A stretch of 64,000 nucleotides of DNA from Actinocorallia herbida. GTDB taxonomy: Bacteria; Actinomycetota; Actinomycetes; Streptosporangiales; Streptosporangiaceae. Position 1 is the first letter of the stretch, and every line of letters begins with the position of its first letter. Shown here one piece after another: positions 13,227 through 62,679 of the stretch. Both the position numbers and the translations under genes were made by a program. The stretch covers positions 2,604,001 through 2,668,000 of the forward strand of contig NZ_RJKE01000001.1 of the NCBI RefSeq assembly GCF_003751225.1, read 5' to 3'. The notes under the pieces are model-generated. The model did no database searches. It saw only the letters and a list, made by a program, of their open reading frames with translations, and had not been told where the DNA came from.

Positions 13227-13300
13227 ATACAACGTATCTCAAGTAGACAGCGTACAAAGTGCTGTGTACGTTGTATCTCGATCAATACGGCGTACACAGC
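13227..13300. promoter_or_regulatory. Clustered TetR operator repeats
   Basis: Between divergent starts lie ATACAACGTA (13227-13236) and its exact complement TACGTTGTAT (13267-13276), and GCTGTGTAC (13261-13269) with its exact complement GTACACAGC (13292-13300). GTACA/TGTAC half-sites recur at 13252, 13265 and 13292. They overlap the likely promoters of both genes. Confidence 0.75.
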
Positions 13301-13312
13301 AAGGGAAACGTC

Positions 13313-13900
13313 ATGGACCAGCTCAAGATCGCGGTCATCGTCGGCAGTACCCGTGAGGGCAGGTTCGGTCCCTCGGTCGCCTCCTGGGTGACGGGCCGGA
13401 TCACCCGGCGCGGCGACATGGAGGCCGAGGTGATCGACCTGGTGGAGACCCCGCTGCCGACCGTCTTCCCCGTGCTCGGGCAGCCTCCCGCGGCCGCCGG
13501 GGACCGGGCGCTGCTGGCCGCCGTGTCCCCGCGCATGGCCGCGGCCGACGCCTTCGTCATCGTGACGCCCGAGTACAACCACAGCTTTCCCGCCGCCCTG
13601 AAGAACGCCATCGACTGGCACTCCACCGAGTGGCACGCCAAGCCCGTCGCGTTCGTCTCCTACGGCGCCTTCTCCGGGGGCCTGCGCGCCATCGAGCAGC
13701 TCCGCCCGGTCCTCGCCGAACTGCACGCGGTGACGGTCCGCGACGCGGTCTCCCTCCAGCACCCGTGGGCGCTGTTCGACGGGGACGGAAAGGCGGTGGA
13801 CCCGGCCCTGGACGCCGCAGCCGAGCTCATGCTGGACCGAGTCGGCTGGTGGGCGCGCGCCCTTCGCACCGCCCGGACCGACAGCCCTTACGCCGCCTGA
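13313..13900 (+). CDS. NADPH-dependent FMN reductase-like oxidoreductase
   Basis: A 195-residue flavodoxin-fold protein. The phosphate-binding loop GSTREGRFGPSVASWV (about 10-25) and the TPEYNHSFPAALKNAIDW segment (about 84-101) are the two family signatures. Members reduce FMN, quinones, azo dyes or chromate with NAD(P)H. ATG 13313 has AAGGGA upstream and lies after the operators, which rules out the longer frame. It is followed one base later by an MFS transporter, so reduction and export are probably co-induced when the divergent TetR is released, for example by a quinone-like or nitro compound (inference). Confidence 0.9.
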   Translation: MDQLKIAVIVGSTREGRFGPSVASWVTGRITRRGDMEAEVIDLVETPLPTVFPVLGQPPAAAGDRALLAAVSPRMAAADAFVIVTPEYNHSFPAALKNAIDWHSTEWHAKPVAFVSYGAFSGGLRAIEQLRPVLAELHAVTVRDAVSLQHPWALFDGDGKAVDPALDAAAELMLDRVGWWARALRTARTDSPYAA

Positions 13901-13901
13901 C

Positions 13902-15455
13902 ATGAACGACCTCACGAAGCGCGAACGCCGCTCCCTCCACGTCGGCGTTCTCGGCCTGCTGCTCGGCATGTTCCTGGCGATGCTCGACGGCCTGATCGTG
14001 GGCACCGCGCTGCCCACGATCGCCGGCGACCTCGGCGGGCTCGGCCACCTGGCCTGGGTGGTGACGGCGTACCTGCTCGCCAGTGCGGCCACCACCCCGA
14101 TCTGGGGCAAACTCGGCGACCTGGTGGGCCGCAAAGCGGTGTTCGTCGGCGCGATCCTGGTCTTCCTGGTCGGCTCCGCCCTGTGCGGCCTGGCCCAGGA
14201 CATGGTCCAGCTGATCGTGTTCCGGGCCGTGCAGGGACTCGGCGCGGGCGGGCTCATGGTCGGCGCGCTCTCCATCATCGGCGTGGTGGTGGCGCCCCGC
14301 GACAGCGGCCGGATCCAGTCGATGATCGGCGTCATCATGCCGATCGCCTACGTCGGCGGCCCGCTGCTCGGCGGTCTGCTCACCGACCACCTCAGCTGGC
14401 GCTGGACCTTCTACGTCAACCTGCCCGTCGGCGCCGTCGCCCTGGTGCTCATCGCCACCCGCATCCACCCGCCATCCGCGCCGCGCGGCCGCCCCCGCAT
14501 CGACTACGCGGGCGCGGCCCTGCTGACGGCCGCCATCGTGGCGCTGACCCTGCTCGCCACCTGGGCCGGGACCACCTACCCGTGGGCGTCACCGCAGATC
14601 CTCGGCCTGGGCGCGCTCGGCGTCCTCGGCCTCGGCTGGTTCATCGCCGTCGAGCGGCGCGCCGCCGAGCCGATCATCCCGCCCCGGCTGTTCGCCGACC
14701 GGAACTTCACCGTCGTACAGGTGCTCGGCCTCCTGGTCGGCGCCGTGATGTTGACCGTGACCGGCTACCTGCCGCAGTACTTTCAGTTCGTCCAGGGAGC
14801 GTCCCCGGCGGCGAGCGGGATGCTGCTGCTCCCGCTGATGTTCGGCATGCTCGGCGCCCAGCTGCTCTCCGGCCGCCTCATCACCGAGAACGGCAGGTAC
14901 CGGAGATACCCGATCCTCGGCGGCGCGCTCATGGCCGCGGGCTCCGTAGCCCTGCTCCGGCTCGAGGTGGGGACCGCCGTCGTCACGGCGTCCGCGCTCA
15001 CCGCGGTCATCGGCGTCGGCATCGGCCTGCTGATGCAGAGCACCACCCTGATCACCATGAACAGCGCGGAGCCGCGCGACATGGGCGCCGCCAACGGCAC
15101 CCTCATGCTGGTCCGCGTCATCGGTGGCTCGGTGGGCATCGCCTTCCTGGGCACCCTTTACGCCGCCCGCATGGCCGCGGATCTGACCGCCGACCTCGGC
15201 CGGTCCGCCGCCCTGCGCCTCACCGAAGGCGGCGACCTCACCCCGGCCCTTCTCGCCGACCTCCCCGCCGCGACCGTCGACGCCGTCCGCGCGGCGGTGA
15301 CCGGCGGCCTCCACCTCCTCCTCCTGGGCGCCCTCCTCCTTTCCCTCCTGGCCTTCGCCGCCTCCTGGCTGATCCGCGAAGTCCCCCTCCGCGAGACGCC
15401 TCCCGACCCCGGAACCCCCGCCCCGCCCGTCCCGGACGCCCGTGCCCGCCCTTGA
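13902..15455 (+). CDS. MFS drug transporter, DHA2 (14-TM, EmrB/QacA) family
   Basis: A 517-residue integral membrane exporter driven by the proton gradient. The length and hydrophobic pattern fit 14 helices. Family motifs are visible: MFLAMLDGLIVGTALPTIAGDL in TM1, motif A as GKLGDLVGRKAVF (about 68-80), and WRWTFYVNLPVG after TM5. The C-terminus is a short Pro-rich tail (TPPDPGTPAPPVPD). It starts directly after the reductase stop, so expression is coupled. Substrate specificity cannot be read from sequence; the TetR context points to a toxic small molecule. Confidence 0.93.
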   Translation: MNDLTKRERRSLHVGVLGLLLGMFLAMLDGLIVGTALPTIAGDLGGLGHLAWVVTAYLLASAATTPIWGKLGDLVGRKAVFVGAILVFLVGSALCGLAQDMVQLIVFRAVQGLGAGGLMVGALSIIGVVVAPRDSGRIQSMIGVIMPIAYVGGPLLGGLLTDHLSWRWTFYVNLPVGAVALVLIATRIHPPSAPRGRPRIDYAGAALLTAAIVALTLLATWAGTTYPWASPQILGLGALGVLGLGWFIAVERRAAEPIIPPRLFADRNFTVVQVLGLLVGAVMLTVTGYLPQYFQFVQGASPAASGMLLLPLMFGMLGAQLLSGRLITENGRYRRYPILGGALMAAGSVALLRLEVGTAVVTASALTAVIGVGIGLLMQSTTLITMNSAEPRDMGAANGTLMLVRVIGGSVGIAFLGTLYAARMAADLTADLGRSAALRLTEGGDLTPALLADLPAATVDAVRAAVTGGLHLLLLGALLLSLLAFAASWLIREVPLRETPPDPGTPAPPVPDARARP

Positions 15456-49734: not shown

Positions 49735-50418
49735 TCAGGAGGGGAGGGTTCGCACCAGGTAGGCCCAGGCGGCCTCCATCTGGGACGGGGCGTAGCAGCG
49801 GTCTCGTTTCGCCAGGGACTCTTCCGCGTCGGAGAACTCCGGCTCGGGCGTGGCGGCGGTGACCTGGAGCTGCATGCGGCAGGCCTTCTCCAGGAAGATC
49901 GCGGTCAGGACGGCCGTGGGGACGTCGGGGCCGACGGTGACGAGTCCGTGCCGGTGGAGCAGGATCGCGTCGCGGTCGCCGAGGGCGGAGGCCAGCTCCG
50001 CGCCGAGCGGGCGATCGCGGATGAGGTCGCCGGTACGGGTGAAGCGGGCGATGTCCGGCGGCCAGAACAGGGTGCCCTCGTGGCCGACCGGGCGGAGTTC
50101 GGCGCCGGTGGCGGCGAAGGCGACGGCGGCTTCGGCATGGCTGTGCACGACCGCGCCGACGTCGGGGCGGGCGGCCAGGATCTCGGTGTGGATCGGGTAC
50201 TCCAGGTGGACCCGGTCGCCGCCCGCGAGCAGGGCGCCGTCCCGGTCGACAAGGGTGACGCGCTCGGGGGTGATCTCCTCCATGCCGTACCCCGCCGACT
50301 TCAGCCAGACGCCTTCGCCGTCGGGGTCGCGCAGGGACAGGTGGCCCCAGATGAGGTCGGCGTTGCCGTGGGCGGCGAGGACGCGGCAGCCGAGGGCGAC
50401 CTCCTCGGCGGGGGTCAC
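49735..50418 (-). CDS. class II aldolase/adducin family protein
   Basis: A 227-residue zinc-dependent aldolase-fold protein. GNADLIWGHLSLRDPDGEGVWLKSAGYGMEEI (about 18-49) and VVHSHAEAAVAFAATG (about 87-102, two zinc His) are canonical, with a third His in LLHRHGLVTVG. In catabolic operons the family performs retro-aldol cleavage or decarboxylation of hydroxy-keto acids from ring cleavage. Its GTG overlaps the stop of the alpha/beta hydrolase (GTGA). It is the terminal gene of the 12-gene operon, well placed to release pyruvate-type fragments. Confidence 0.9.
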   Translation of the reverse strand: MTPAEEVALGCRVLAAHGNADLIWGHLSLRDPDGEGVWLKSAGYGMEEITPERVTLVDRDGALLAGGDRVHLEYPIHTEILAARPDVGAVVHSHAEAAVAFAATGAELRPVGHEGTLFWPPDIARFTRTGDLIRDRPLGAELASALGDRDAILLHRHGLVTVGPDVPTAVLTAIFLEKACRMQLQVTAATPEPEFSDAEESLAKRDRCYAPSQMEAAWAYLVRTLPS

Positions 50419-51290
50419 CGGGCGCCCTCGACGAGGAAGTCGCCGACGACGCGGTTGAACTGCTCCGGCTGCTCGAACATCGGCCAGTGGCCGGCGCCGG
50501 TGATCATGTCGAACGAGGCGTTCGGCAGGATCTGCGCGGCGCGGCGGCCCACTTCGGCGGGGGTCGTCGGGTTGCGGTCGCTCCACAGCACGAGCGTCTC
50601 GTGCCGGATCGAGGCGAGGTGCTCCTCGGTCAGCATGTGGGCGCGGTTGGCCTCGCTGGGCTGCTCGGCGACGAGCTTGGCCAGCGCCTCCTCGGCGCCG
50701 GGCAGGGTGTAGTACCGGTAGCGGCACTCCACGAGCTCGTCGGTGACGGTCGCGGGGTCGACCATCAGCCATTCGAGCCGCTCGCGGACGCTCTCGCGGG
50801 TCGGCGCCGCGGCCGCCTTCGCGGTGACGGACTTGACCTGGGCGTGCACGCGCTCGCTCTCCGCGGCCCGGCCCGCGTCCGACAGCAGCAGGCCCGCCCC
50901 GGTGACGGACACGACCTTGCCGACCCGGTCGGGGTGCTTCAGCGCGGTGTGGAGGGCGGTCCAGCCGCCGAGGGACTGACCGACGAGGTGGGCCTTCTCC
51001 GCGCCGATCGCGTCGAGGAAACCGATGAGGTGCTCGGTGAAGACGGGCGCGTGGTAGGTGACGTCGGTCGGCCGGGCCGTGAGGCCGTGGCCTAGGGCGT
51101 CGATGGCGTGGACGCGCAGGCCGCGTTCGGCGAGCGGCACGACGTTGCGCAGGAAGCCTTCGGCGTGGCCGGTGAGCCCGCCCATGAGGATGACGGCGTC
51201 GCCTTCGCCCGCCTCGATGGAGCGGGTGCGCCAACCGGCGGCGTCGCGGTAGCGGGTCTCGGCGCCGAGGGAGTCGGTCCACAGGGTCAT
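50415..51290 (-). CDS. alpha/beta hydrolase (meta-cleavage-product hydrolase-like), complete triad
   Basis: A 291-residue hydrolase. Nucleophile Ser106 in HLVGQSLGGWTALH; oxyanion region GGLTGHAEGF (about 37-46); an acid in LWSDRNPTTP; catalytic His268 in GAGHWPMFEQPEQF. The pattern fits MhpC/BphD-like C-C bond hydrolases that act on ring-fission products. The N-terminal TLWTDSLGAETRYRDAAGWR closely resembles that of the next gene upstream, showing the two are tandem paralogues. Start and stop overlap both neighbours by 4 bases, so translation is coupled. Confidence 0.9.
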   Translation of the reverse strand: MTLWTDSLGAETRYRDAAGWRTRSIEAGEGDAVILMGGLTGHAEGFLRNVVPLAERGLRVHAIDALGHGLTARPTDVTYHAPVFTEHLIGFLDAIGAEKAHLVGQSLGGWTALHTALKHPDRVGKVVSVTGAGLLLSDAGRAAESERVHAQVKSVTAKAAAAPTRESVRERLEWLMVDPATVTDELVECRYRYYTLPGAEEALAKLVAEQPSEANRAHMLTEEHLASIRHETLVLWSDRNPTTPAEVGRRAAQILPNASFDMITGAGHWPMFEQPEQFNRVVGDFLVEGAR

Positions 51291-52156
51291 GAGTGGTCGT
51301 CCTTCTTGGTGGGGGAGTCTGCGAGGAAGTCGATGAGGGAGGCGTTGACGAGATCGGGCCGCTCGTACTGCGGCCACTGCTTGGCTCCGGGCACGGTCAG
51401 CAGCCGCCCGTGGGGGACGGCGGAGACCGCCGCCTCGACGACGGCCGCGGGGGTGTGCCCGTGCTCGCCGCGCACGAAGAGGACGGGCGCGGCGACGGAG
51501 GCGAGCCGCTCCGGGGTGAGGAGCGAAGGGCCGTTGTCGGCCGCCCGGACCAGCCGGTGCACGCGCCGGGCGTCCTCCGGCCGGTACAGCGCGGTGCGCA
51601 CGTCGACGAGTTCGGCGTCGACCGTCGAGGGGTCGGCGAGCAGCCCGGCGAGCCGGGTCCGCACGGCCTCGGGCGTCGGCTCGGCGTAGGCCCGGCCGCC
51701 CCGCTCGTAGGCCGCGCGCACCGTCGGGTCGGCGAGCCGGTCGGTCTCCGCCTGGAGCCCGGCCGGTTCGATGAGGACCAGCCGCCGCACCCGGTCCGGC
51801 GCGCGCGGCGCGGCCAGCGCGGCGGCCCACCCGCCCAGCGACTGCCCGACCAGGTCGACCGAGTCCAGCCCGAGCGCGTCGAGCACCGCCAGCGCGTGGG
51901 CGGTCAGGTCCGCCACCGTGTAGGAGCCGGCCGGAGACCTGCCGGTGAGCCCGTGGCCGAGCAGGTCGAAGGCGATCGCGCGGTGCCCGGCGGCGGCGAG
52001 TGCGGGAAGGGTCCGCGCGAACGTCTCCAGGTGGCCGCCCCGCCCGTGCAGGAGGACGACCGGGTCGCCCGAGCCGAGGGCGGCGACACGGGTCGGCACT
52101 CCGGCCGCGTCGAGGTGCCGGATCTCGGCGCCGAGCAGGTCGGTCCACAGGCTCAC
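51287..52156 (-). CDS. alpha/beta hydrolase paralogue lacking the catalytic His
   Basis: A 289-residue paralogue of the downstream hydrolase: SLWTDLLGAEIRHLDAAGVP at the N-terminus, LLHGRGGHLETF oxyanion loop, and Ser106 in DLVGQSLGGWAAAL retained. Where the triad His should be, the protein reads VPGAKQWPQYERPD, with Lys259-Gln260 in place of Gly-His; the codons are clearly AAG CAG. No compensating His lies nearby. The protein may be catalytically dead, may use another base, or may form a mixed dimer with its paralogue. GTG 52156 overlaps the dienelactone hydrolase stop. Confidence 0.88.
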   Translation of the reverse strand: MSLWTDLLGAEIRHLDAAGVPTRVAALGSGDPVVLLHGRGGHLETFARTLPALAAAGHRAIAFDLLGHGLTGRSPAGSYTVADLTAHALAVLDALGLDSVDLVGQSLGGWAAALAAPRAPDRVRRLVLIEPAGLQAETDRLADPTVRAAYERGGRAYAEPTPEAVRTRLAGLLADPSTVDAELVDVRTALYRPEDARRVHRLVRAADNGPSLLTPERLASVAAPVLFVRGEHGHTPAAVVEAAVSAVPHGRLLTVPGAKQWPQYERPDLVNASLIDFLADSPTKKDDHS

Positions 52157-52908
52157 AGGTGCTCCCTCAGAAAGGCGAGGGTGCGCTCCCAGGTGAGGCG
52201 GGCGGCGGCCGCGTCGTGGTTGGGGTGCGTGTCGTCGTGGTAGGCGTGCCCTGCGCCGTCATAGACGTGGACCTCGGTCTCCTGCCCGGACAGCTTCAGC
52301 GCGTCGGTGAGACGGCCGACCTGGTCGAGCGGGATGACCTCGTCCGCGCCGCCGAAGTGCGCCTGGACGGGGCAGCGGACGGCGTCGGCGACGGTGATGC
52401 GGGAGCGGACCTGCCCGGTGGGGCTGTAGGACGGCGGCAGCTCGGGCAGTCCGTAGAGCGGCACGGCGCAGGCCAGCCGGTCGGTCCGCGTCGCCCAGGC
52501 GAGGGCGAGCCCGCCGCCGAGGCAGAACCCGACGACGGCGGCCCGGGAGGCGTCGACGTCGTCGCGTCCGGCCAGATGATCCAGGCCCGCCTCGAGGTCG
52601 GGCAGGGCCTGTTCGTCGCGGGCGGCGAGGAACGCCTTGGCGCGGCGCTCGTCGGGGGTCGCGTAATCCTGTGGGGGGCGGCCGCCGATCCTGCTGTACA
52701 GGTCGACGGTCAGGCACGCGAAGCCCTCGTCGGCGACGAGCTCGGTGACCCGACGCCGGTGCTCGGTGACGCCGAGGTTCTCGTGCGCCATGACGACGAC
52801 GGGCGGCGGGGCCTCGCCGGGGCGGCGGACGGGCACGGCGAGGTAGCCGCGGATCTCGTCGGGTCCGCTGGGGAAGGTCACCCAGCCCGCTTCGGGTGCT
52901 CTCTGCAT
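52153..52908 (-). CDS. dienelactone hydrolase family protein
   Basis: A 251-residue cysteine hydrolase. The nucleophile is Cys129 in AAVVGFCLGGGLALAWA, followed by the acid in FGGADEVIPLDQV and His in YDGAGHAYHDD. PVVVMAHENLGVTEHRRRV (about 36-54) supplies the oxyanion site. The family opens dienelactones formed from catechol cleavage, though many members act on other esters. It lies 15 bases after the IclR gene within the operon, next to ring-cleavage genes, so lactone opening in the same pathway is a reasonable role. Confidence 0.92.
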   Translation of the reverse strand: MQRAPEAGWVTFPSGPDEIRGYLAVPVRRPGEAPPPVVVMAHENLGVTEHRRRVTELVADEGFACLTVDLYSRIGGRPPQDYATPDERRAKAFLAARDEQALPDLEAGLDHLAGRDDVDASRAAVVGFCLGGGLALAWATRTDRLACAVPLYGLPELPPSYSPTGQVRSRITVADAVRCPVQAHFGGADEVIPLDQVGRLTDALKLSGQETEVHVYDGAGHAYHDDTHPNHDAAAARLTWERTLAFLREHL

Positions 52909-52923: not shown

Positions 52924-53739
52924 TCAGCCCGCACGCGGCGGGGAGGGCGGGTGCGCGGCCGCGGTCCGGCCGAGCAGGTGCTTGATGTGGGTGCCGAGGG
53001 CTTCGAGCCGCCGGCGCGGCATGCGCGCGATCTGGCCGCAGACCGCGATCGCGCCGGCGGGCCTGCCGCCGACCATCACCGGGACGGCGACCCCGGCGAT
53101 GCCGGGGATGAACTCGCCGATCTCGATGGCGTAGCCGTAGCGGCGGCAGGTCTCCAGCTCGCGGTGGAGGGCTTCGGGGTCGGTGATGCTGGCCGGGGTG
53201 CGCTGCGCCAGCGGCAGCCGGGTGACGATCTCCTCGCTCTCCTCCCGCGGCAGGCCGCTGAGGATGGCGCGGCTGATGCAGCCGTTGGCCAGCATCGAGC
53301 GCCTGCCGAGCGGCGACAGCGACTCCGGGGAGTGCGGCGCCTCCCGCTTGCCCGTGATGAGCAGCGACCTGTCCCGCCAATCGATCTCGGCGACCAGGAC
53401 GGTCTCACCGGTGGAGCGGATGAGCTCCTCGGCGACGCCCTGCGTCAGGTGGGACAGGGCGGTCGTCGCCGAGACGAGGCTGCCGAGCTCCAGCAGGCGG
53501 TTGCCGAGGACGTAGGCGCCGTCGGCCTCCTGCCGGAGGAAGCCGCGCTCGACCAGGGTCACCGCGATGCGGTGGGTGCTGGTCTTCGGCACGCCCGCGG
53601 CCTCGGCCAGCTCGGTGAGCTGGAGGCGCGGGTGCGCGGCGCTGAACGCGCCGAGCACGTCCAGGGCGCGGTCGACGGAGCGTACTCCGCGGCGGCGGCC
53701 GCCTTCGTCGTCGGGAAGGGAGCGAGGAGAGTCGTTCAC
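52924..53739 (-). CDS. IclR-family regulator
   Basis: A 271-residue regulator. N-terminal winged HTH: SVDRALDVLGAFSAAHPRLQLTELAEAAGVPKTSTHRIAVTLVERGFLRQ (about 21-70). The C-terminal GAF-like effector domain contains LANGCISRAILSGLP, YGYAIEIGEFIPGIAGVAVPV and RPAGAIAVCG. IclR proteins respond to aromatic acids and similar effectors. GTG 53739 has GAGG at 5-base spacing; a longer frame lacks support. Unusually it is embedded in the middle of the operon, 7 bases after the substrate-binding lipoprotein, so it is made together with the pathway it presumably controls. Confidence 0.92.
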   Translation of the reverse strand: MNDSPRSLPDDEGGRRRGVRSVDRALDVLGAFSAAHPRLQLTELAEAAGVPKTSTHRIAVTLVERGFLRQEADGAYVLGNRLLELGSLVSATTALSHLTQGVAEELIRSTGETVLVAEIDWRDRSLLITGKREAPHSPESLSPLGRRSMLANGCISRAILSGLPREESEEIVTRLPLAQRTPASITDPEALHRELETCRRYGYAIEIGEFIPGIAGVAVPVMVGGRPAGAIAVCGQIARMPRRRLEALGTHIKHLLGRTAAAHPPSPPRAG

Positions 53740-53746
53740 GGTGGCC

Positions 53747-54727
53747 TCACGCGCAGTAGGAGGGAGCTTCGCTCGCATTCTCACTGGTCACGAGCGCGTC
53801 CGGCACGGTGGCGATCTTCTCGACGCCCTGCGTGCCGCGCAGGAGGCCGACGACGTTGTCCACGGCCATCTCGCCGACGCTCTTGGGGGTGTTGCTGACG
53901 GTGACCGCGAACTCCCCGTCCTGAACGGCCTTGACGCCCGCCTCGCTGCCCCCGTTGGTGAGGATCTTGATGTCGTCGCGTCCCGCGGCCTTGAAGGCGG
54001 CGAGCGCGCCGAACGCCATGTCCTCGTTGTGCACGAACACGTAGGTGACCTTCGGCCGTGCCTGCAGGAGGTTGTCGGCGACGTCCTGGGCCTTGGCGCG
54101 CTGCCACATGGCGGGCTGGTCGAAGACGACCTTCGCCGAGTCGCCGACGGCGCCCTTGAACGCGTCGTTCATCAGGTCGGCGGCCGCGCCGGGCGCCCCG
54201 CCGATGACGCCGACCTCGACGGGCTCTCCGCCGCTGTCCTTCGCGAGCCACTCGCCGAGTTCACGGCCGACCTTCTTGACGTCGGTGACGACCGCGCCGA
54301 GGATCTTGGTCTGGTCGACGGACGCGACCGAGGTCAGGAAGATGGGGATGCCGGCCCGGTTGGCGCGGCCGATGCCGCCTTCGAGCGAGTCGATGTTGAC
54401 CGTCTGGACGACGATGGCGTCGACCTTCTTGACGATCATGTCGTCGATGTTGGACAGCTCCTTGGCCGGGTCCATCGCGGAGTTCGACGTCAGCAGCTTC
54501 ACGCCGGAGGCGTCGGCGCGGGCCTGCATGGCGCGCTGGAGGCAGGTGTGGAACTCGATGGAGTTGCCGTTGACGAACCCGAGGGTCAGGTCCTTGCCGG
54601 CGGCGATCGGCGCGGAGGCCGTCTTCCCTTCGTCGACGGAGCAGCCGGCCAGCGCGAGGCCCGCGAGAGCGAGCGCGGTGGCGGTTCTGAAGGCGGGGAT
54701 GCGGCCTCTGCCTGGGGTGGCGGACAT
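53747..54727 (-). CDS. sugar-type ABC transporter substrate-binding lipoprotein
   Basis: A 326-residue exported binding protein of the RbsB type (Peripla_BP_4). The signal peptide ends in a lipobox, LALAGLALAGCSVDEG, so Cys28 should be lipidated. LTLGFVNGNSIEFHTCLQRAMQARADASGVKLL (about 48-80) and VDAIVVQTVNIDSLEGGIGRANRAGIPIFL match the fold. ATG 54727 with GGAAGG upstream is chosen; another ATG 24 bases earlier is possible. It delivers substrate to the adjoining permease. Its neighbours are aromatic-degradation enzymes, so the ligand is probably not a simple sugar. Confidence 0.92.
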   Translation of the reverse strand: MSATPGRGRIPAFRTATALALAGLALAGCSVDEGKTASAPIAAGKDLTLGFVNGNSIEFHTCLQRAMQARADASGVKLLTSNSAMDPAKELSNIDDMIVKKVDAIVVQTVNIDSLEGGIGRANRAGIPIFLTSVASVDQTKILGAVVTDVKKVGRELGEWLAKDSGGEPVEVGVIGGAPGAAADLMNDAFKGAVGDSAKVVFDQPAMWQRAKAQDVADNLLQARPKVTYVFVHNEDMAFGALAAFKAAGRDDIKILTNGGSEAGVKAVQDGEFAVTVSNTPKSVGEMAVDNVVGLLRGTQGVEKIATVPDALVTSENASEAPSYCA

Positions 54728-54777: not shown

Positions 54778-55752
54778 TCAGCGGGGTGTGCCGCGCAGGT
54801 GGTTGATGACGGCCGCGACGAGCAGCACCGTGCCGAGCGCCACGTCCTGGAAGTGGGAGTTGATCTGGAGCAGGTTGATGGCGTTGGCGACGACGCCGAG
54901 GAGCACCACGCCCAGGGCGGTGCCGACGATGGTTCCGCTGCCGCCGTGCAGCGCGGTGCCGCCGATGACGACCGCGGCGACCACGGTGAGCTCCAGGTGC
55001 AGGCCGCCGGTGCCGGGGCTGGCGGCGCCGAGCCGGGCGACGAGCATGACCCCGCCGAGCCCGGCGAGCAGCCCGCCCAGGGTGTAGAGCAGCAGCTTGG
55101 TGCGCGCCACGGGGATCCCCGCGAGGCGGGCCGCCTGCTCGTTGCCGCCGATGGCGAAGGCGTTGCGGCCGAACGCCGTCCACCGGAGGATCAGGCCCGC
55201 GGCGACGCAGACGGCGATCGCGACGACCACGAGGGCGGGAACGGCGCCGAGGACCTCGCCGAAGCCGAGCGGCATCAGCGCGTCGCCGATGGAGATGCTC
55301 TTGCCGTCGATGATGAGCAGGGCCGCGCCGCCGAGGACCGTCGAGGTGGCGAGCGTGGCGACGAACGGGGCGACCCGCAGGTAGGTCACCACGAGCCCGT
55401 TGACCAGGCCGATCGCCGCGCCCAGCGCGAGCGCCAGCCCGGCCGCGGTCCACTCGTTCACACCCGCGACGACGAGCTGGGCGGTGACGCCGTGGGCGAC
55501 GGCCGCGATCGCACCGAGAGAGAAGTCGATGCCTCCCGCGGCCATGAGCAGGGTGAGCCCCGCCGCGAGGACGGCGACGACGGCGATCTGCTGGGAGACG
55601 TTGAGCAGGTTCGGCCCGGTGAGGAACGCCTCGCTGCGCAGCGCGGTGAAGGCCCCGACGAGCAGCAGCACGGCGAGCAGGCCGGTGTGCCGGGACACGC
55701 CCGGTGGCAGCCCGAGGCGGGGCAGGCCCTTTGAGGCGGTGAGTGCGGTCAT
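54778..55752 (-). CDS. RbsC-type ABC transporter permease
   Basis: A 324-residue membrane protein of the BPD_transp_2 family with 8-10 helices. Landmarks are AAGGIDFSLGAIAAVAHGV (about 70-88), RWTAFGRNAFAIGGNEQAARLAGIPVAR, and VIGGTALHGGSGTIVGTALGVVLLGVVANAINLL (about 264-297). It presumably works as a homodimer with the fused ATPase, whose gene overlaps it by 4 bases. It is part of the uptake system of the aromatic/ketone operon. Confidence 0.93.
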   Translation of the reverse strand: MTALTASKGLPRLGLPPGVSRHTGLLAVLLLVGAFTALRSEAFLTGPNLLNVSQQIAVVAVLAAGLTLLMAAGGIDFSLGAIAAVAHGVTAQLVVAGVNEWTAAGLALALGAAIGLVNGLVVTYLRVAPFVATLATSTVLGGAALLIIDGKSISIGDALMPLGFGEVLGAVPALVVVAIAVCVAAGLILRWTAFGRNAFAIGGNEQAARLAGIPVARTKLLLYTLGGLLAGLGGVMLVARLGAASPGTGGLHLELTVVAAVVIGGTALHGGSGTIVGTALGVVLLGVVANAINLLQINSHFQDVALGTVLLVAAVINHLRGTPR

Positions 55753-57260
55753 GGTCGTTCTCCTCCTGCGGTGAGCGTGACGAGGTCGTCCCGGCTCACC
55801 TGGTCCATGGGCAGGTCGGCGATGGTCCGGCCGCCTCGGACGACGACGACGCGGTCCGCGAGCCGGATCACCTCGTCGATGTCGGAGGAGCCGAGCAGGA
55901 CGGCGGTGCCGCGTTCGGCGAGGCCGTCGACGATGCGGTGGATGTCGGCCTTGGCGGCCACGTCGACGCCGTTGGTCGGCTCCTCCAGGAGGCAGGCGGC
56001 CGGGTCGCCGTCGAGCCACGCCGACAGCAGCACCTTCTGCTGGTTGCCTCCGGACAGGGCCGCCACCGGCGGGTCCTGCTGGATCGCGGTGACGCCGTAG
56101 CCGGCGCGGGACGCCCGCCCGCGGGCGTGCAGGTCGCGCCAGCGCACCAGCCAGGGCCGGAGCCTGCCGCGGCGGACGAGGTCGAGGTTCTCGTCGACGC
56201 CGAGCCCGGCCACGAGCCCGTAGGAGAGCCGGTCACCGGTCACGCAGCGCAGCCCCGTGCGCAGGGCCGCGGCGACGCTGCCGGACCGGACGGCCGTCCC
56301 GTGCACGGCGATGGTGCCGCCGTCGGCCCGGCGCAGCCCGCTGAGCAGTCCGAACAGCTCGGACTGGCCGTCGCCGGCCGGGCCGAGGACGGCGACGACC
56401 TCACCGGCCCGCACTTCGAGGTCGAAGGGCGCGAGCCGTCCACCGCTGAGCCCGGACAGCGTCAGCACCGGGGCGCCCGGCGTGCGGTCCTTGTCAGGTC
56501 TGCCCTGCATCGGCCGGTCGCCGACCATGGCCCGCACGAGCGCGGGCAGGTCGAGCGCGGTCCGGTCCTCGACGGCCGCGACACGTCCGTCGCGCATGAC
56601 GGTGACGCGGTCGGCGAGGGTGAGCACCTCGTCGAGGTGGTGCGAGATGTAGATGATGGCGGTGCCCCTGGCGCGCAGGGTCCGCACGAGACCGTGGATC
56701 CGCGCGGCGTCGGCGCCGCCGAGCGAGGCCGTCGGCTCGTCCAGGACGAGGACCCGGCCGCCGTGGTGGACCTCGCGGGCGATCTCGACGAGCGTCCGCT
56801 CGCCGGGCCCGAGGTCCCCCGCGAGCGCGGTCGGCGCGACGTCAAGGCCGAGGTCGGCCAGCGCGGCGGAGGCCTCTTCGCGGACCTTCCGCCACAGCAC
56901 CCTTCCCGCACGGGTGGGGAGCCTGCCGAGCAGCAGGTTCTCCGCCACGCTGAGCCCGGCGACGAGCGTGCGCTTCTGATGGACGATGCTCACGCCCGCC
57001 GCGCGGGCGCGGCGCGGGTTGAGCGGCCCCTGGCGACGCCCGTCGACGCGGATCTCGCCGTCGTCCTGGGTGAACGACCCGCAGATCAGCTCGACCAGGG
57101 TCGACTTGCCCGCGCCGTTCATGCCGACGACGGCGTGCACCTCGCCGGGCAGCAGCGTGAAGTCGACGCCCGCGAGCGCCTGCGCCCCGCCGAAGGCCTT
57201 GCGCACGCCCCGCAGTTCCAGCACGGGGGCCGGTGTTCCCTTCGCGTCGGACACGGCCAT
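55749..57260 (-). CDS. RbsA-type dual ATPase of an ABC importer
   Basis: A 503-residue protein with two ABC domains. Domain 1 has Walker A GMNGAGKST (about 46-54), a signature that reads LGPGERTLVEIAR rather than LSGG, and Walker B VLVLDEPTAS. Domain 2 has a degenerate Walker A, GPAGDGQSE, without the Lys, but a good signature LSGGNQQKV and CLLEEPTNGVDV. This asymmetry is common in RbsA-like proteins, so it should be functional. It lies 1 base after LigA and overlaps the permease, placing uptake and ring cleavage in one transcript. Confidence 0.94.
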   Translation of the reverse strand: MAVSDAKGTPAPVLELRGVRKAFGGAQALAGVDFTLLPGEVHAVVGMNGAGKSTLVELICGSFTQDDGEIRVDGRRQGPLNPRRARAAGVSIVHQKRTLVAGLSVAENLLLGRLPTRAGRVLWRKVREEASAALADLGLDVAPTALAGDLGPGERTLVEIAREVHHGGRVLVLDEPTASLGGADAARIHGLVRTLRARGTAIIYISHHLDEVLTLADRVTVMRDGRVAAVEDRTALDLPALVRAMVGDRPMQGRPDKDRTPGAPVLTLSGLSGGRLAPFDLEVRAGEVVAVLGPAGDGQSELFGLLSGLRRADGGTIAVHGTAVRSGSVAAALRTGLRCVTGDRLSYGLVAGLGVDENLDLVRRGRLRPWLVRWRDLHARGRASRAGYGVTAIQQDPPVAALSGGNQQKVLLSAWLDGDPAACLLEEPTNGVDVAAKADIHRIVDGLAERGTAVLLGSSDIDEVIRLADRVVVVRGGRTIADLPMDQVSRDDLVTLTAGGERP

Positions 57261-57261
57261 G

Positions 57262-57516
57262 TCAGCCCCCGTTCTTCGCGGCCGGGTACATGTCCTGGTG
57301 GGCGATCCCGAGGACGACCATCAGGTTGCGCAGCGCGACGGGGTTCATCCCGGCGTCGAGCAGCCAGGCCGCGTCCTTGCCGGCCACCGCGCGCCGCTCG
57401 GATTCCGTCAGCCGGTACTCGTCGAGCACGGTGCCGGGGGATTCCAGGTAGCGCCCGAGCAGGCCGGGGGTGTGCTCCAGTTCCCGGGCGAGCCGGTTCA
57501 GGCCGACGACGCTCAC
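57262..57516 (-). CDS. LigA-like (protocatechuate 4,5-dioxygenase alpha) subunit
   Basis: An 84-residue small helical protein. RYLESPGTVLDEYRLTESERRAVAGKDAAWLLDAGMNPVALRNLMVVLG (about 23-71) is the LigA fold, which caps the LigB active site and shapes substrate binding. It is shorter than the 139-residue Sphingomonas LigA. GTG 57516 overlaps the LigB stop (GTGA). It presumably pairs with the LigB-like protein encoded just upstream to make an extradiol dioxygenase of the PCA 4,5-dioxygenase superfamily; fused or split versions occur in gallate- and methylgallate-cleaving enzymes. Confidence 0.88.
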   Translation of the reverse strand: MSVVGLNRLARELEHTPGLLGRYLESPGTVLDEYRLTESERRAVAGKDAAWLLDAGMNPVALRNLMVVLGIAHQDMYPAAKNGG

Positions 57517-58331
57517 GACGCCACCTCGAAGGAGGCGATGCCGATCCCGACGGTCCAGGCCGGCATCGGCCGGTAGGCGTGCACCCGGGCCGGGCCGCCC
57601 GCCGCGCCCGCGGCGACGAGCCAGGTACGGATCTCCAGCGCGCCGTTGCCCGCCTCGTCCAGGATCGACGCGTCGTCCCAGGTGAGGACCTCGTCGGCGG
57701 CCCCCCGCTCCAGCAGGCCGAGCAGGCGGCCGTCGAACTCGGGGTTGATGTCGCCGAAGCGCGGCAGCCCGACCCAGTGCGACAGGCCCCCGGTGCCGAG
57801 CACGCCGACCCGGACGTCGCCGGGCAGCTCCCGCACGGTCGCGCGCAGCGCGGCGCCGAGGTCGAGGCAGCGGCGCAGGGTCGGCAGCGGGGCGGTGTTG
57901 CAGTTGACGAACAGGGGCACCACCCCGGCGGCGGCCGCCGCCGGGAGCTTGGCGAGCGGGACCGTGAAGCTGTGGTCCAGCGCCATCGTGTGCGAGCGGG
58001 CGAGGTCGAAGCCGCGGGAGGTGAGGCCCTCCAGGAGCGCCCCGGCGACCTCGGGCCGCCCGGCCACGGTCCCGCCCGGGTTGCCGAACTCCGCCCAGCC
58101 CTCGTGCTCCTCGGCCATGCCGAGGCAGAAGGCCGGGTAGTTCTCCAGCCCGAACGTCTCGTAGTGGTCGGTGGCCACGACGACGACGGCGTCGAGGCGG
58201 GCGGCGGCGATCTCGGCGTCGAGCCGCCGCCAGGCGTCGTGCAGCACTCCGGAGACCGCGGGGTCGGCGTCGGCGTTCTTGACGATCGCGCCGACGTGGG
58301 AGGTCGCCGCGGCGAGCGCGAGGTGGCCCAT
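57513..58331 (-). CDS. LigB-type extradiol ring-cleavage dioxygenase
   Basis: A 272-residue class III extradiol dioxygenase that cleaves a catechol-type ring using Fe(II). Iron ligands by analogy with LigB (His12, His61, Glu242) are His12 in AATSHVGAI, His56 in VATDHYETF, and Glu233 in GNGALEIRTW. The catalytic base is His185 in GTGGLSHWVGLPRFGDINPEFD, and MALDHSFTVPL lines the site. All key residues are present. ATG 58331 shares a base with the HyuB stop. With LigA it forms the ring-opening step of the operon. The native catechol is not known. Confidence 0.92.
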   Translation of the reverse strand: MGHLALAAATSHVGAIVKNADADPAVSGVLHDAWRRLDAEIAAARLDAVVVVATDHYETFGLENYPAFCLGMAEEHEGWAEFGNPGGTVAGRPEVAGALLEGLTSRGFDLARSHTMALDHSFTVPLAKLPAAAAAGVVPLFVNCNTAPLPTLRRCLDLGAALRATVRELPGDVRVGVLGTGGLSHWVGLPRFGDINPEFDGRLLGLLERGAADEVLTWDDASILDEAGNGALEIRTWLVAAGAAGGPARVHAYRPMPAWTVGIGIASFEVAS

Positions 58332-60553
58332 CACTCCTCCGTTCCGGTGAGCGGGCGGATGTCGTCGGGATGGGCGGCGCCGATCCGGACCACGTCGGTG
58401 GCCTGGAGGCGGCCGCACGAGGGGCAGGAGTAGGCGCGCAGCTCCAGGCCCTCGTCCAGGCGGGTGGCGTGGCCGAACGCGTGCACGTCGCGGCTGGTCG
58501 CCTGCGCGGCGTGCGCGCGCCACGGCTCGTCGGCGCGGGAGAGGACGCAGCCGCAGGCGCAGGCGATCCAGCGGCTTCCGTCGGCCTCGACGACGGCGAG
58601 GCCGTCGCCCATCGGGTGGATCCGGGTGCGTGCGCCCTGCGGCTGCTCCGGAAGGGGGAGCCCGGCGGGCAGGGACAGGCGCGCCGCGCGCAGGCTCGCG
58701 CGCCGGGCGGCGGTGGCCGGGCCGTCGATCCCGCCGTCATCGCCCAGGACCACCCCGTAGAGGCGGACCGCCGCGCCGGCGGTGACGGCCCCGAAGTCGA
58801 GGTCGGCCTGGACGGCCGCGGCGGGCCGGTCGAGCGGATCGCCCCAGCCGCCGCCCGCCTGCGGCACGGTGGCCAGGACGTCGTCGTCGCCCAGGTGGTA
58901 GAGGCCCTGGCGGCCCCGCATGACCGGGCGCTCGCCGGACAGGTCGCCGACCGAGGGGATGGTCCCGGCCGCGAGCCTGGCCTTGACGTCGCTCCCGTGC
59001 ACGACGGTGCGGGTGTTCTGCGCGCCGGGGTAGCCGCCGAAGATCCCCGTGGAGTTCGGCACCTCCCAGCCGTGCGCGGAGTTCAGCGCGGTCACGTCCC
59101 GGCCGCTGTGCACGGTGTAGACGGCGCCCATGCTCATCCCACCGCGGTGGCGGCCCGCGCCGCCGGAGTCGGCGACGAGCCCGCGCCACAGGTACAGCAG
59201 CGGCGAGTCCATCTCGACGGCCTCGACGTTGGAGATCCGCTGCCGTTCGATGTTGTGCTGGCCCTGCGTCCAGGCCCCGTCGCGGTGCGAGTACGCCGCG
59301 CCGCCCGTCGCGAGGCAGTCCATGATCACGTAGGTCTGGCGGGCCCCGTTGTCGCCCGCGCCGGTCAGGACGAACTTGTCGGGGCCGCCGGCCGGACCCG
59401 CCTGGGCCTCCCGCAGCAACTCGTCGGAGCAGGCCGCGAGCTTCGACAGGCACTCCAGCGCCGTCATCTCGACGAGCCAGCCCGCCTCCAGCGCCCCGCC
59501 GCTCACCGCCGCCGGACGTGCCGCGTTGCAGATCAGGCCCTCGGGGCACTCGACCTCGACCGGCTGGAACAGGCCCTCGTTCCAGGGTGCGTCGAACGCC
59601 AGCGTCGGCAGCAGCGCCGCGGCGATCCCGGCCATCATCCCGGAGTAGGCGCAGTTGATGTAGCCCTTGGCCTGCGGAGAGGAGCCGGAGAAGTCGAAGT
59701 GCAGGGTGTCGCCGCGCTTGGTGAGCACGAGGTCGACCTCGTAGGTGGCGTTCTCCGACGACTGGGCCAGGCCGCCGTCGTTGTCGAGGAACGCCCGCGA
59801 GTGCAGCCGGGCGTCGGGCAGCAGCGCGAGCCGGTTGCGCAGGCGGCGCTCCGACAGGCCGATGAGGTTGGCCATCACCGTGCGGACCGTCGCCGCGCCG
59901 TACTTCTCGGCCAGCGCCGTCATGGCGCGGATCGCGGTGTTGTTCGCGCCGATGAGCGCCCGCAGGTCGAGGTTGACGGTCGGGGCCATGCGGGTGTGGC
60001 CGAGGATCAGGTTCCACACGTCGGTGCGGACCTCGCCGCCGTCGACGAGCTTCGTCGGCGGCATCTGGAGGCCCTCCTGGTAGGAGTCCGTCGCGTCGAT
60101 GCAGAAGCTGCCGGGGGTCATGCCGCCGACGTCGACCATGTGGCACATCGCGCCGGTCCAGGCGAGCAGTTCGCCGTCGAAGAAGATCGGGGCGATGAGG
60201 CCGACGTCCTGGGCGTGGACGGTGCCCTTCCAGGGGTCGTTGACGATGAACATGTCGCCCGGACGGATCCCGGGGGAGTCGGTGCAGTCCTCGATGACCG
60301 AGCGGGTGATCGCGGCCATGGACGAGGCGTGCGACAGGATCGTGCGGCCCATCGCGGCGACCGAGCCGTCCGGCAGGTAGAGGCCGACGTTGTAGTCGCT
60401 GGCCTCGACCACGTGGGTGGAGCCGGAGATGGCCGCGAGGGTCGCGCCCTGCTCGTCGGTGATGGCCAGCAGCCGGTGCCGGATGACCTCGAAGGTGATC
60501 GGGTCGATGGCCGTGCCGGACTCGGTGGCCGTGCCGGTGGCGGAAATGGTCAC
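58331..60553 (-). CDS. hydantoinase B/oxoprolinase-type subunit with fused C-terminal zinc domain
   Basis: A 740-residue protein. Residues about 14-560 are the HyuB domain: DPITFEVIRHRLLAITDEQG, FIVNDPWKGTVHAQDVGLIAP and GAGRHRGGMSMGAVYTV are typical. The last 80 residues hold two Cys clusters, WIACACGCVLSRADEPWR (Cys665/667/669) and YSCPSCGRLQATDVV (Cys710/713), spaced as in the gamma subunit of acetone and acetophenone carboxylases. HyuB proteins are usually 520-600 long, so this looks like a beta-gamma fusion. With HyuA it should form an ATP-dependent carboxylase or hydantoinase-like enzyme. GTG 60553 overlaps the HyuA stop. Confidence 0.88.
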   Translation of the reverse strand: MTISATGTATESGTAIDPITFEVIRHRLLAITDEQGATLAAISGSTHVVEASDYNVGLYLPDGSVAAMGRTILSHASSMAAITRSVIEDCTDSPGIRPGDMFIVNDPWKGTVHAQDVGLIAPIFFDGELLAWTGAMCHMVDVGGMTPGSFCIDATDSYQEGLQMPPTKLVDGGEVRTDVWNLILGHTRMAPTVNLDLRALIGANNTAIRAMTALAEKYGAATVRTVMANLIGLSERRLRNRLALLPDARLHSRAFLDNDGGLAQSSENATYEVDLVLTKRGDTLHFDFSGSSPQAKGYINCAYSGMMAGIAAALLPTLAFDAPWNEGLFQPVEVECPEGLICNAARPAAVSGGALEAGWLVEMTALECLSKLAACSDELLREAQAGPAGGPDKFVLTGAGDNGARQTYVIMDCLATGGAAYSHRDGAWTQGQHNIERQRISNVEAVEMDSPLLYLWRGLVADSGGAGRHRGGMSMGAVYTVHSGRDVTALNSAHGWEVPNSTGIFGGYPGAQNTRTVVHGSDVKARLAAGTIPSVGDLSGERPVMRGRQGLYHLGDDDVLATVPQAGGGWGDPLDRPAAAVQADLDFGAVTAGAAVRLYGVVLGDDGGIDGPATAARRASLRAARLSLPAGLPLPEQPQGARTRIHPMGDGLAVVEADGSRWIACACGCVLSRADEPWRAHAAQATSRDVHAFGHATRLDEGLELRAYSCPSCGRLQATDVVRIGAAHPDDIRPLTGTEE

Positions 60554-62679
60554 GCCTCCCCCTTGCAGTCGATGACGAGGTTGCTGTGGTGGTCGACGGC
60601 GAGCGTCTGGTCCGGGCCGAGCACGACGGTGGTGCCGGCGAACTCCAAGATCGCGGGGCCGCGCAGGGCCGCGCCGCTGCCGAGGCCCTCGCCGCGGTAG
60701 ACGCGGGTGGCGACCCGGCCGGTCTCGGGGAAGTGCACGGCGCGCTCGCCGATGAGCGCGGCGTCGGGGTCGGCCGCGCCCGGGTACTGGCCCTCGCGGA
60801 CGTCGGTGATCTTCACCCGGCCCTCGACGCGCAGGGTGTGGATCTCCACGCCCGCGCCGAGCAGGGCGGTGCCCGCGCCGTAGATCCGCTCGTAGGCGGC
60901 GCGGAAGTCCTCGATCAGCCCGCGCAGCACCTCGGTGGTGACCGGGCCGTCGGCGACGGTGAGGGGCAGTTCGTGCGACTGGCGGCGGAACTTCAGGTAC
61001 GCCACGCGGGAGAGCCGGACGCGCGGGTCGTCGTCCAGGTCGGCGCGGCACTGGGCGGCCAGCGCGTCGAACGTGGCGGAGATGCGCTCGGCGTCCAGGT
61101 GCGCGGCGGGGTCCTGCGAGCCAGGGGGAGTGCGGTGCACTTCCGTCGTCTGGACGGCCCGGTACCGGTCGGAGGTGACGGTGCCGTAGGCGGAGTGGAC
61201 CGTCGAGGTCGGCGGGACGACGAGCGTCGCGATGCCCGCGGCCTCGGTGTAGGCGTAGGCGTGGGTGGGGCCCGCCCCGCCGTAGGCGTAGACGACGAAG
61301 TCACGCGGGTCATGGCCCTGCTCGACCGTCACCTTGCGCAGAAGGTCGGCCATCTGGTTGTCGGCGACCTTGCGGATGCCCGCCGCGGCCTCCTCGACGG
61401 TCAGGCCGAGCGGGTCGGCCACGTGCACGCGGATCGCCTTCTCGGCGAGCGCGCGGTCCAGCGGCATCCGGCCGCCGAGGAAGCGGGCCGGGTCGATGAT
61501 GCCGAGGACCACGTCGGCGTCGGTCACGGTCGGGCGGTCGCCGCCACGGCCGTAGCAGGCGGGGCCGGGCACCGATCCGGCGCTTTCGGGGCCGACGGTC
61601 AGCACGCCCGACTCGTCCACGCCCGCCAGCGAGCCGCCGCCCGCGCCGATCGCCGTCACCTTGATGCGCGGCAGCGCCAGATGCAGGTCGCCGACCTCGC
61701 TGACCCGCTCCACCAGCGGCTCGCCGTCGATGATGAGGCCGACGTCGAAGCTGGTGCCGCCCATGTCGGAGGTGATGACGTTGCGGTGCCCGAGCCGCGC
61801 GGCGAGCGCGGTCGAGGCCAGGACGCCGCCCGCGGGGCCGGAGGTGAGCATCGACGCCGAGCGGCGCGCCGCGTCCTCGGCCCGCATGACGCCGCCGCCG
61901 GAGTCCATGATGGAGAAGTCGCCGGTGAACCCGGTGGCGCGCAGGCGGCCTTCCAGGTTGGCGACGTAGTCGCGGATGACCGGGCCGAGGTAGCTGTTGA
62001 CGACCGTGGTCGCGGACCGCTCGTACTCGCCGATGACCGGCGCGACCTCGTGCGAGAGCGTCGCGTAGGCCTCGGGCCACTCCTCGGCGATGATCTCGGC
62101 GACCTTCTCCTCGTGCGCGCCGTTCACGAACGACCACAGGAACGACACCGCGAGAGCGCGCACGCCCTCGGCGCGGAGCCTGCGGAGCGTCGCCCGCACC
62201 TCGGCCTCGTCCAGTGCGACGATCTCGGCCCCCGCGGCGTCGGTCCGCTCGGTGATCTCCACGATCCGCGACCGCGGCACGATCGGGTCGGGGTTGCGGC
62301 GGCGGCTGTAGTGGCCGGTCGCCGCGCCCATCCCGACCCACGAGGTCATCGACCGCTGGATGAGCATGGTGTCGCTGAACCCGCGCGTGGTGAGCAGCGC
62401 CGTCGGCGCGCCCTTGCGCTCGATCAGCGCGTTCGTCGCGGCGGTCGTGCCGTGGGCGAAGTAGACGACGGCGGCGCAGAAGTCCCCGAGGTCCATCCCG
62501 TAGGACTCCGCGGCGAGCCTGAGCGCGTTGACGACGCCCTCGGACCTGTCCTCGGGGGTCGTCGGCGACTTGAACAGCCGCGGTGGCCGCCCGTCGCGAA
62601 GGGCGACGAGGTCGGTGAACGTACCCCCCACGTCCGTGCCCACAAAGAACCGCGGACTTGATTCCGAATTACTTTCCAC
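60550..62679 (-). CDS. hydantoinase A/acetone-carboxylase-type ATP-dependent subunit
   Basis: A 709-residue protein of the HyuA/oxoprolinase family. The sugar-kinase/Hsp70-like ATPase motif is FVGTDVGGTFTDLVAL (about 12-27), followed by FAHGTTAATNALIER, a second phosphate loop SDMGGTSFDVGLI (about 304-316), and GAGGGSLA. YAYGGAGPTHAYAYTEAAGI and the C-terminal beta domain are complete. The family phosphorylates amide or enol oxygens with ATP before hydrolysis or carboxylation. The length matches AcxA (about 717). GTG 62679 has only a weak ribosome site. First gene of the operon, so its promoter should lie in 62680-63215. Confidence 0.92.
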   Translation of the reverse strand: MESNSESSPRFFVGTDVGGTFTDLVALRDGRPPRLFKSPTTPEDRSEGVVNALRLAAESYGMDLGDFCAAVVYFAHGTTAATNALIERKGAPTALLTTRGFSDTMLIQRSMTSWVGMGAATGHYSRRRNPDPIVPRSRIVEITERTDAAGAEIVALDEAEVRATLRRLRAEGVRALAVSFLWSFVNGAHEEKVAEIIAEEWPEAYATLSHEVAPVIGEYERSATTVVNSYLGPVIRDYVANLEGRLRATGFTGDFSIMDSGGGVMRAEDAARRSASMLTSGPAGGVLASTALAARLGHRNVITSDMGGTSFDVGLIIDGEPLVERVSEVGDLHLALPRIKVTAIGAGGGSLAGVDESGVLTVGPESAGSVPGPACYGRGGDRPTVTDADVVLGIIDPARFLGGRMPLDRALAEKAIRVHVADPLGLTVEEAAAGIRKVADNQMADLLRKVTVEQGHDPRDFVVYAYGGAGPTHAYAYTEAAGIATLVVPPTSTVHSAYGTVTSDRYRAVQTTEVHRTPPGSQDPAAHLDAERISATFDALAAQCRADLDDDPRVRLSRVAYLKFRRQSHELPLTVADGPVTTEVLRGLIEDFRAAYERIYGAGTALLGAGVEIHTLRVEGRVKITDVREGQYPGAADPDAALIGERAVHFPETGRVATRVYRGEGLGSGAALRGPAILEFAGTTVVLGPDQTLAVDHHSNLVIDCKGEA

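Follow-up and report, generated by a model that had tools for sequence, protein, structure and literature searches.

A HyuB-type protein fused to a carboxylase gamma-like domain in a putative aromatic meta-cleavage operon of Actinocorallia herbida

The enzymes closest to the system described here differ in their gene sets. According to Weidenweber et al. (PMC5214803), hydantoinase (Hyd) clusters consist of alpha and beta genes only, acetone carboxylase (Acx) clusters add a gamma gene after beta, and the acetophenone carboxylase (Apc) cluster contains alpha', gamma, alpha, beta and epsilon. Sequence motifs alone failed to separate Hyd, Acx and Apc (PMC5214803). In Actinocorallia herbida, a 64,000-nucleotide stretch of contig NZ_RJKE01000001.1 (positions 2,604,001 to 2,668,000, hereafter the window) encodes a HyuB-type beta subunit that continues into a gamma-like tail. 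This HyuB-gamma fusion (window positions 58331..60553, minus strand) is 740 residues long and starts with GTG, preceded by a purine-rich stretch, AAGGGGGAGGC. The open reading frame with its gamma-like tail is confirmed as a real observation. It exceeds the 581-residue caprolactamase subunit CapB by 159 residues (PMC8453981), in agreement with a preliminary description of this DNA, which had put the excess over ordinary HyuB at about 150. Databases would file the protein under the subunits of hydantoin-splitting enzymes.

The tail forms a putative gamma domain (58334..58636, minus strand, residues 640-740), and profile searches and the predicted fold support its identification as the gamma subunit of acetone/acetophenone carboxylase, fused to HyuB. 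Searched alone, it passes the gathering cut-off of 21 bits of the acetone carboxylase gamma profile PF08882, with 22.4 bits for a 182-residue segment (E 1.5e-4) and 24.2 bits for a 119-residue segment (E 4.2e-5); the match covers residues 647-722. The score is 22.1 bits in a six-frame search and 18.4 bits, below the cut-off, in the full-length protein. The tail was aligned with those of 16 orthologues, and all 17 tails match PF08882 at E<=1, the best at 2.3e-10. Comparison of the 17 orthologue tails with 17 gammas taken to be stand-alone (a set from which L027, near a contig end, was left out) gave an hhalign score of 97.8% (E 1.2e-12), with 97.9% against the seven Acx-like and 89.1% against the ten Apc-like gammas, and 0.05% in the control with reversed gammas. 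In the whole 9.8-Mb single-contig genome, HyuB-gamma is the only PF08882 match (E<=1).

The predicted structure points in the same direction. The tail was modelled by AlphaFold2 from 38 rows, with a mean predicted local distance difference test score of 87.9. Foldseek matched the model to the Acx gamma chain 5m45_C (E 5.1e-6). By VIA-align, it superposes on Acx gamma 5svb_F over 101 residues (Z 12.2, root-mean-square deviation 2.7) and on Apc gamma 5l9w_C over 96 residues (Z 9.5, deviation 3.4), and the next unrelated chain reaches Z 4.2. Given the PF08882 E-values, the agreement of all 17 tails and the clear fold match, the similarity is not a matter of chance.

Two putative zinc knuckles can be recognized in the tail, Cys665-Ala-Cys667 (58553..58561) and Cys710-Pro-Ser-Cys713 (58415..58426, both minus strand). 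Their four cysteines, which are the likely zinc ligands judging from the alignment, are present in 17/17 tails and reproduce the CxC...CxxC spacing of Acx gamma, where the pattern is formed by Cys74/76/124/127 (PMC5543143). In Apc gamma, the pattern is CxxC...CxxC (Cys22, 25, 75, 78; PMC5214803), and this second form is found in 11/11 aligned tails of a paralogue group (L062-L073, locus numbers of this analysis) that is 35-39% identical. The five cysteines listed in the preliminary description, at 665, 667, 669, 710 and 713, are all correctly placed; Cys669 does not belong to the conserved set, being a cysteine in only 6 of the 17 tails. The tail might instead be some generic zinc ribbon that has no kinship with gamma and was added to HyuB by chance, as weak matches (E<=1) to Cas12f1-like_TNB in 10/17 tails and to Zn_ribbon_3 in 3/17 would allow. 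Against it stand the profile, the fold over 101 residues, the ligand spacing, the position after beta and the existence of an adjacent separate-gene form, so that we regard this explanation as very improbable indeed.

The separate-gene form was found in relatives that lack the tail. A beta-core tree was built on window residues 15-603, leaving out the tail. Four tail-less rows lie on its carboxylase side, and in two of them (L004 and L068) a small gene directly downstream matches the tail model, with 67 and 83 bits. It overlaps the HyuB gene (ATGA) in L004 and lies about 85 bases away in L068 if the first ATG is used. This separate downstream gene indicates that the tail is a fused gamma. Around the plain HyuBs of the hydrolase side, no tail-model match (E<=1e-3) was found within about 1.5 kb (10/10). 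L004 and L068 nest beside a fused sister, L063 (support 99/96), so the state, fused or split, has changed at least once in that group. Profile, predicted fold, cysteine conservation and these separate-gene relatives all bear out the proposal, made in the preliminary description, of a beta-gamma fusion.

The remainder of the protein corresponds to a beta subunit. The Hydantoinase_B domain (58835..60505, minus strand, residues 17-573) matches PF02538 with E 2.7e-124. Its predicted fold aligns with Apc beta 5l9w_A at Z 38.0, CapB 6yra_B at Z 35.1 and Acx 5svc_A at Z 34.0; VIA-align was run here on the full model with one best chain per entry, the gamma chains being compared with the tail alone. 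Four predicted metal ligands, Asp53, His113, Asp116 and His138 (60140..60397, minus strand), align with CapB Asp41, His99, Asp102 and His124 (PMC8453981), and 90% or more of the 41 alignment rows have each of them. A second HyuB-like match in the same genome (L003, G000:C1:1010089-1011507) shows 30% identity over query residues 10-512, with one stop within the matched stretch. A 776-codon open frame runs antisense to HyuB on the plus strand (58370-60700), which is unsurprising at 72.6% G+C. The plus-strand reading of 58331-60553, open and of high G+C content, was rejected; it resembles nothing related.

The partner of HyuB-gamma is HyuA, a single ATP-binding alpha subunit of 709 residues (60550..62679, minus strand; PF05378/PF01968/PF19278), whose gene overlaps that of HyuB-gamma by 4 bases. 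Its motifs DVGGTFTD (16), ERTDAAG (144), DMGGT (305) and GSVPGP (368) are in place, with both the phosphate and the adenosine motifs intact. The HyuB fold with its Asp-His-Asp-His metal site and a HyuA with ATP motifs place the pair in the hydantoinase/ketone carboxylase superfamily. HyuA adjoins HyuB in all 13 named orthologue loci, and a HyuA match lies beside HyuB in 16/16 regions around other relatives; among these regions, L096 has a partial HyuA at a contig end, L102 a second HyuA/HyuB pair, and L109 surrounds a split form. No second HyuA-like alpha' was found in the 13 loci by tblastn with the HyuA of the window, a search that a very remote alpha' could escape.

With this composition, the pair fits neither Acx nor Apc exactly. 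It resembles AcxABC of Xanthobacter autotrophicus (5M45, 5SVB, 5SVC) in having one alpha, one beta and one gamma, with gamma directly after beta, the CxC...CxxC cysteines, the beta metal site and the beta and gamma folds. Unlike in Acx, gamma is fused and is not a separate third gene, it is only about 20% identical, the beta core lies outside the Acx-type clade, and the genes belong to a meta-cleavage operon. ApcABCDE of Aromatoleum aromaticum (5L9W) provides the best beta fold match (Z 38.0), a similar gamma fold and an aromatic context. It differs by its alpha' gene, of which no counterpart was found in the gene cluster, its separate gamma and a CxxC instead of a CxC first knuckle; furthermore, the ApcD equivalog model scores 190 bits of the 1500 required. 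Apc serves an anaerobic route (PMC9618137), whereas the operon here includes oxygen-dependent ring cleavage. CapAB (6YRA) and N-methylhydantoinase (7HK5, 9H03) share the HyuA/HyuB pair, the ATP motifs, the metal ligands and the beta fold, but lack the gamma domain, and their beta cores lie on the other side of a well-supported branch.

This branch was obtained with IQ-TREE (43 rows, LG+G4, not a mixture model; 12 of the 55 rows were dropped as near-copies or to shorten the computation), and FastTree was run on all 55 rows. With support of 100/99, it separates 11 rows, namely CapB, the N-methylhydantoinase and nine plain HyuBs, from the other 32. The larger side holds ApcD, three Acx-type rows, the clade of the window, other tail-bearing rows and the four tail-less ones (L004, L068, L074, L013). 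The three Acx-type rows group together with 100/100 support, and the window clade is outside this group. IQ-TREE warned that two long branches (L017 and L018) meet. Neither feature expected of a hydantoinase or lactamase was observed: a gamma domain is present, and beta does not group with CapB and the N-methylhydantoinase. Moreover, the alignments to caprolactamase and N-methylhydantoinase stop near residue 620, before the tail, which is therefore not shared with these characterized enzymes. A carboxylase is likely the better assignment on these comparisons, and not a proven one. According to the preliminary description, the fusion would make this protein a carboxylase and not a hydantoinase. 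This view is supported, as an inference, by the 100/99 branch and by the lack of gamma in published hydantoinases, and falls short as a demonstration.

Several observations weigh against a carboxylase. The NCBIfam score is higher for CapB (227 bits) than for ApcD (190 bits), neither reaching its cut-off, and in phmmer CapB ranks first and the N-methylhydantoinase second. The inner branches relating the window clade to Acx and Apc have supports of only 39/26, 44/85 and 60/46. The only characterized carboxylase in the tree is ApcD, the Acx rows being of genomic origin and truncated N-terminally owing to short loci. Five relatives (L006, L007, L039, L076, L077) keep a gamma-like tail and have lost at least two of the four cysteines, and three of these (L006, L076, L077) group with the hydrolases, at 0.998 in FastTree and weakly, at 82/80, in IQ-TREE. 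No gamma gene adjoins the tail-less L074, and none lies within the short flank of L013. In addition, gamma reportedly sits far from the active sites (PMC5214803), and what reaction takes place may therefore not depend on it. Among the listed operon genes there is no ring hydroxylase or ketone-making enzyme. As no fused protein found has a known activity, carboxylation is deduced from kinship.

Part of this evidence would suit an ATP-dependent amidohydrolase that opens a lactam, cyclic imide or ureide ring, with gamma kept or gained for structural reasons and the neighbouring LigAB dioxygenase cleaving the aromatic product of the opened N-heterocycle. The phmmer ranking and the tail-bearing rows that lie toward the hydrolases speak for such an enzyme, as does the single alpha and single beta gene in the hydAB order of hydantoinases (PMC5214803). 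Caprolactamase, too, shows a use of ATP that depends on bicarbonate (PMC8453981). The position of the beta core across the 100/99 branch from CapB and the N-methylhydantoinase speaks against it, together with the lack of gamma in the hydantoinases described in PMC5214803; an amidohydrolase is thus considered unlikely, but it is the most serious competitor to a carboxylase.

The genes from HyuA to a class II aldolase-fold protein lie on one strand (minus). Most neighbours abut or overlap, and the two widest gaps measure 53 and 15 bases. The end of HyuB-gamma is overlapped by 4 bases by a LigB-type class III extradiol dioxygenase gene (57513..58334; PF02900 1.5e-40 in the frame 57513-58460), followed by a LigA-type small dioxygenase subunit (57262..57510; PF07746 1.2e-7). 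Next come a ribose-type ATP-binding cassette (ABC) transporter ATPase (55749..57260, Pfam/NCBIfam) and permease (54778..55752, NCBIfam), a sugar-type periplasmic binding protein (53747..54724; PF13407 6.8e-40) and an IclR-type regulator (52924..53784; PF01614, PF09339), the starts of the last two being uncertain. They are followed by a dienelactone-hydrolase-family protein (52153..52908; PF01738 4e-44), two alpha/beta hydrolases (51287..52156, PF00561; and 50415..51287, nearest in NCBIfam to the C-C hydrolases HsaD and BphD, below their cut-offs) and the aldolase-fold protein (49735..50418; PF00596 5e-39). In NCBIfam, the latter is matched best by a generic subfamily model and next by that of the 3,4-dihydroxyphthalate decarboxylase PhtC (115 bits, against a cut-off of 200). 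Such a gene content suggests that an aromatic compound is degraded aerobically by meta-cleavage.

The arrangement is conserved in Actinomycetota, and its core is also found on an alphaproteobacterial plasmid. HyuA, HyuB-gamma, LigB and LigA occur together in 13/13 named loci, and all 11 loci that are long enough also contain the aldolase gene and those of the three hydrolases (L079 and L080 stop earlier). The ABC genes are absent from the operon position in L084, L086, L087, L088 and L089; another ribose-type ABC system is found further along in L084, L086 and L087. In L083, a MarR-type regulator (13276-14010, Pfam) lies between LigA and the ABC ATPase, with similar frames in L082 and L085. 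The aldolase match of L089 (16711-17423) is split over two overlapping frames, possibly by a frameshift or sequencing error. A gene for acetaldehyde dehydrogenase, which acts in the lower route of meta-cleavage, adjoins the aldolase in L088, lies upstream in L090, and is found elsewhere in the genome of the window. The plasmid of Niveispirillum (NZ_CP025613.1, L091, 12852-21411) encodes HyuA (54% identity), HyuB-gamma (45%), the aldolase (38%), all three hydrolases, LigB and LigA in another gene order, with a TonB receptor and a major facilitator superfamily transporter adjoining. Finding these catabolic genes in an alphaproteobacterium suggests that they spread horizontally.

The fused gamma and the aromatic-ring operon together imply that HyuB-gamma probably helps to carboxylate a substrate of this pathway. 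From the combined analysis, we favour HyuA and HyuB-gamma being a ketone-carboxylase-like enzyme acting on an aryl ketone in an aerobic meta-cleavage pathway, which we consider fairly probable. Having a single alpha subunit, the enzyme would activate ketone and bicarbonate one after the other, as Acx does: HyuA would phosphorylate the ketone enol and then bicarbonate, and the activated intermediates would move to the beta metal site, where the beta-keto acid would be formed. The gamma domain would bind zinc and act as a structural clamp, with the C-terminal arm of beta gripping it; the fusion would secure a 1:1 assembly. An aromatic ketone, possibly already dihydroxylated, would be carboxylated and an operon hydrolase would then remove the side chain; meta-cleavage of the ring would be the work of LigAB, a C-C hydrolase and the class II aldolase-like protein, which would serve as a decarboxylase. 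The ketone-first order is our own proposal, and we can only guess at the oligomer, the sequence of the steps and the substrate.

The enzyme could also be a carboxylase of this type that acts on some other enolisable compound, such as a product of ring cleavage or an aliphatic ketone formed in the pathway. It would draw on the same structural evidence, and the operon hydrolases and the decarboxylase-like protein could act after ring cleavage. However, it would leave unexplained why a carboxylase should come late in a meta-cleavage route, where we know of none, and such a substrate seems quite improbable. In its fullest form, the aryl-ketone proposal describes a two-polypeptide, biotin-free, ATP-dependent carboxylase (alpha and beta-gamma), neither Acx nor Apc, that would start aerobic meta-cleavage by carboxylating an aromatic ketone and would be common to Actinomycetota and an alphaproteobacterial plasmid. 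We put this forward tentatively, as a possibility that may well fail in one of its parts.

HyuAB proteins near extradiol genes have been reported once in the literature covered (open-licence PMC papers), in the ARO microcompartment locus of Actinobacteria, where a HyuAB of unknown role stands beside extradiol meta-cleavage genes (PMC10470539). Unlike in ARO, no shell-protein match was found in the genome of the window, nor in 15/15 genomes with fused relatives. Shell proteins (E<=1e-5) occur in 29/394 genomes of the class, and none of 20 shell-protein loci, from 19 of those 29 genomes, matches HyuA or HyuB by tblastn, so no ARO locus was found among them. In Rhodococcus, the hydroxyphenylethanone carboxylase HpeCBA carboxylates an aryl ketone as part of an aerobic aromatic pathway (PMC9618137). 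A relation to it was considered and dropped; HpeCBA is biotin-dependent, and the ATP-dependent carboxylase of Aromatoleum is stated not to be homologous to it (PMC9618137). An apc1-4 cluster is mentioned in Rhodococcus ruber (PMC6498646).

HyuB-gamma is matched at E<=1e-90 in 37/345 genomes of the order, a threshold biased toward tail-bearing proteins; among the matches listed, 44/47 extend into the tail. Twelve genomes of the order, that of the window included, have a copy with at least 83% identity. The 13 named orthologue loci (65-93% identity) belong to Actinomadura, Thermomonospora, Nonomuraea, Sinosporangium, Rhizohabitans, Frankia, Parafrankia, Phytoactinopolyspora, Blastococcus and Aeromicrobium. 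In 296 genomes sampled from the phylum, PF08882 (E<=0.01) is found in 21, in 18 of them above the cut-off. Its 29 matches comprise 3 under the cut-off, 18 that are stand-alone by frame and start, and 8 fused frames, which are that of the window, the three remote frames L039, L047 and L048, and four frames of Acx type (L030, L031, L032 and L044, from genomes G274, G317, G221 and G274; PF08882 118-138 bits). Each of these four frames matches the HyuB-type chain of Acx (E 4e-88 to 4e-103) and, later in the frame, Acx gamma (E 4e-49 to 5e-39). Beta-gamma fusion therefore also occurs in the Acx branch, and a separate gamma gene is not a strict feature of Acx. Zinc cysteines are missing from L031 and L044. 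No beta-gamma fusion was found in the literature covered.

The role of gamma in acetone carboxylase has been described as not clear (PMC5543143). The natural fusions, the split sister genes and the versions that lost their cysteines form a ready series for testing it. Plasmid relatives whose match reaches the tail (H2, H3, H4, H7) are annotated as hydantoinase B/oxoprolinase, and the gamma tail could thus mark annotations for correction. In 2022, the authors of the Hpe study were not aware of any further aerobic aromatic pathway that includes a carboxylation (PMC9618137); the HyuB-gamma operon is a candidate for a second one, which would use a different enzyme family.

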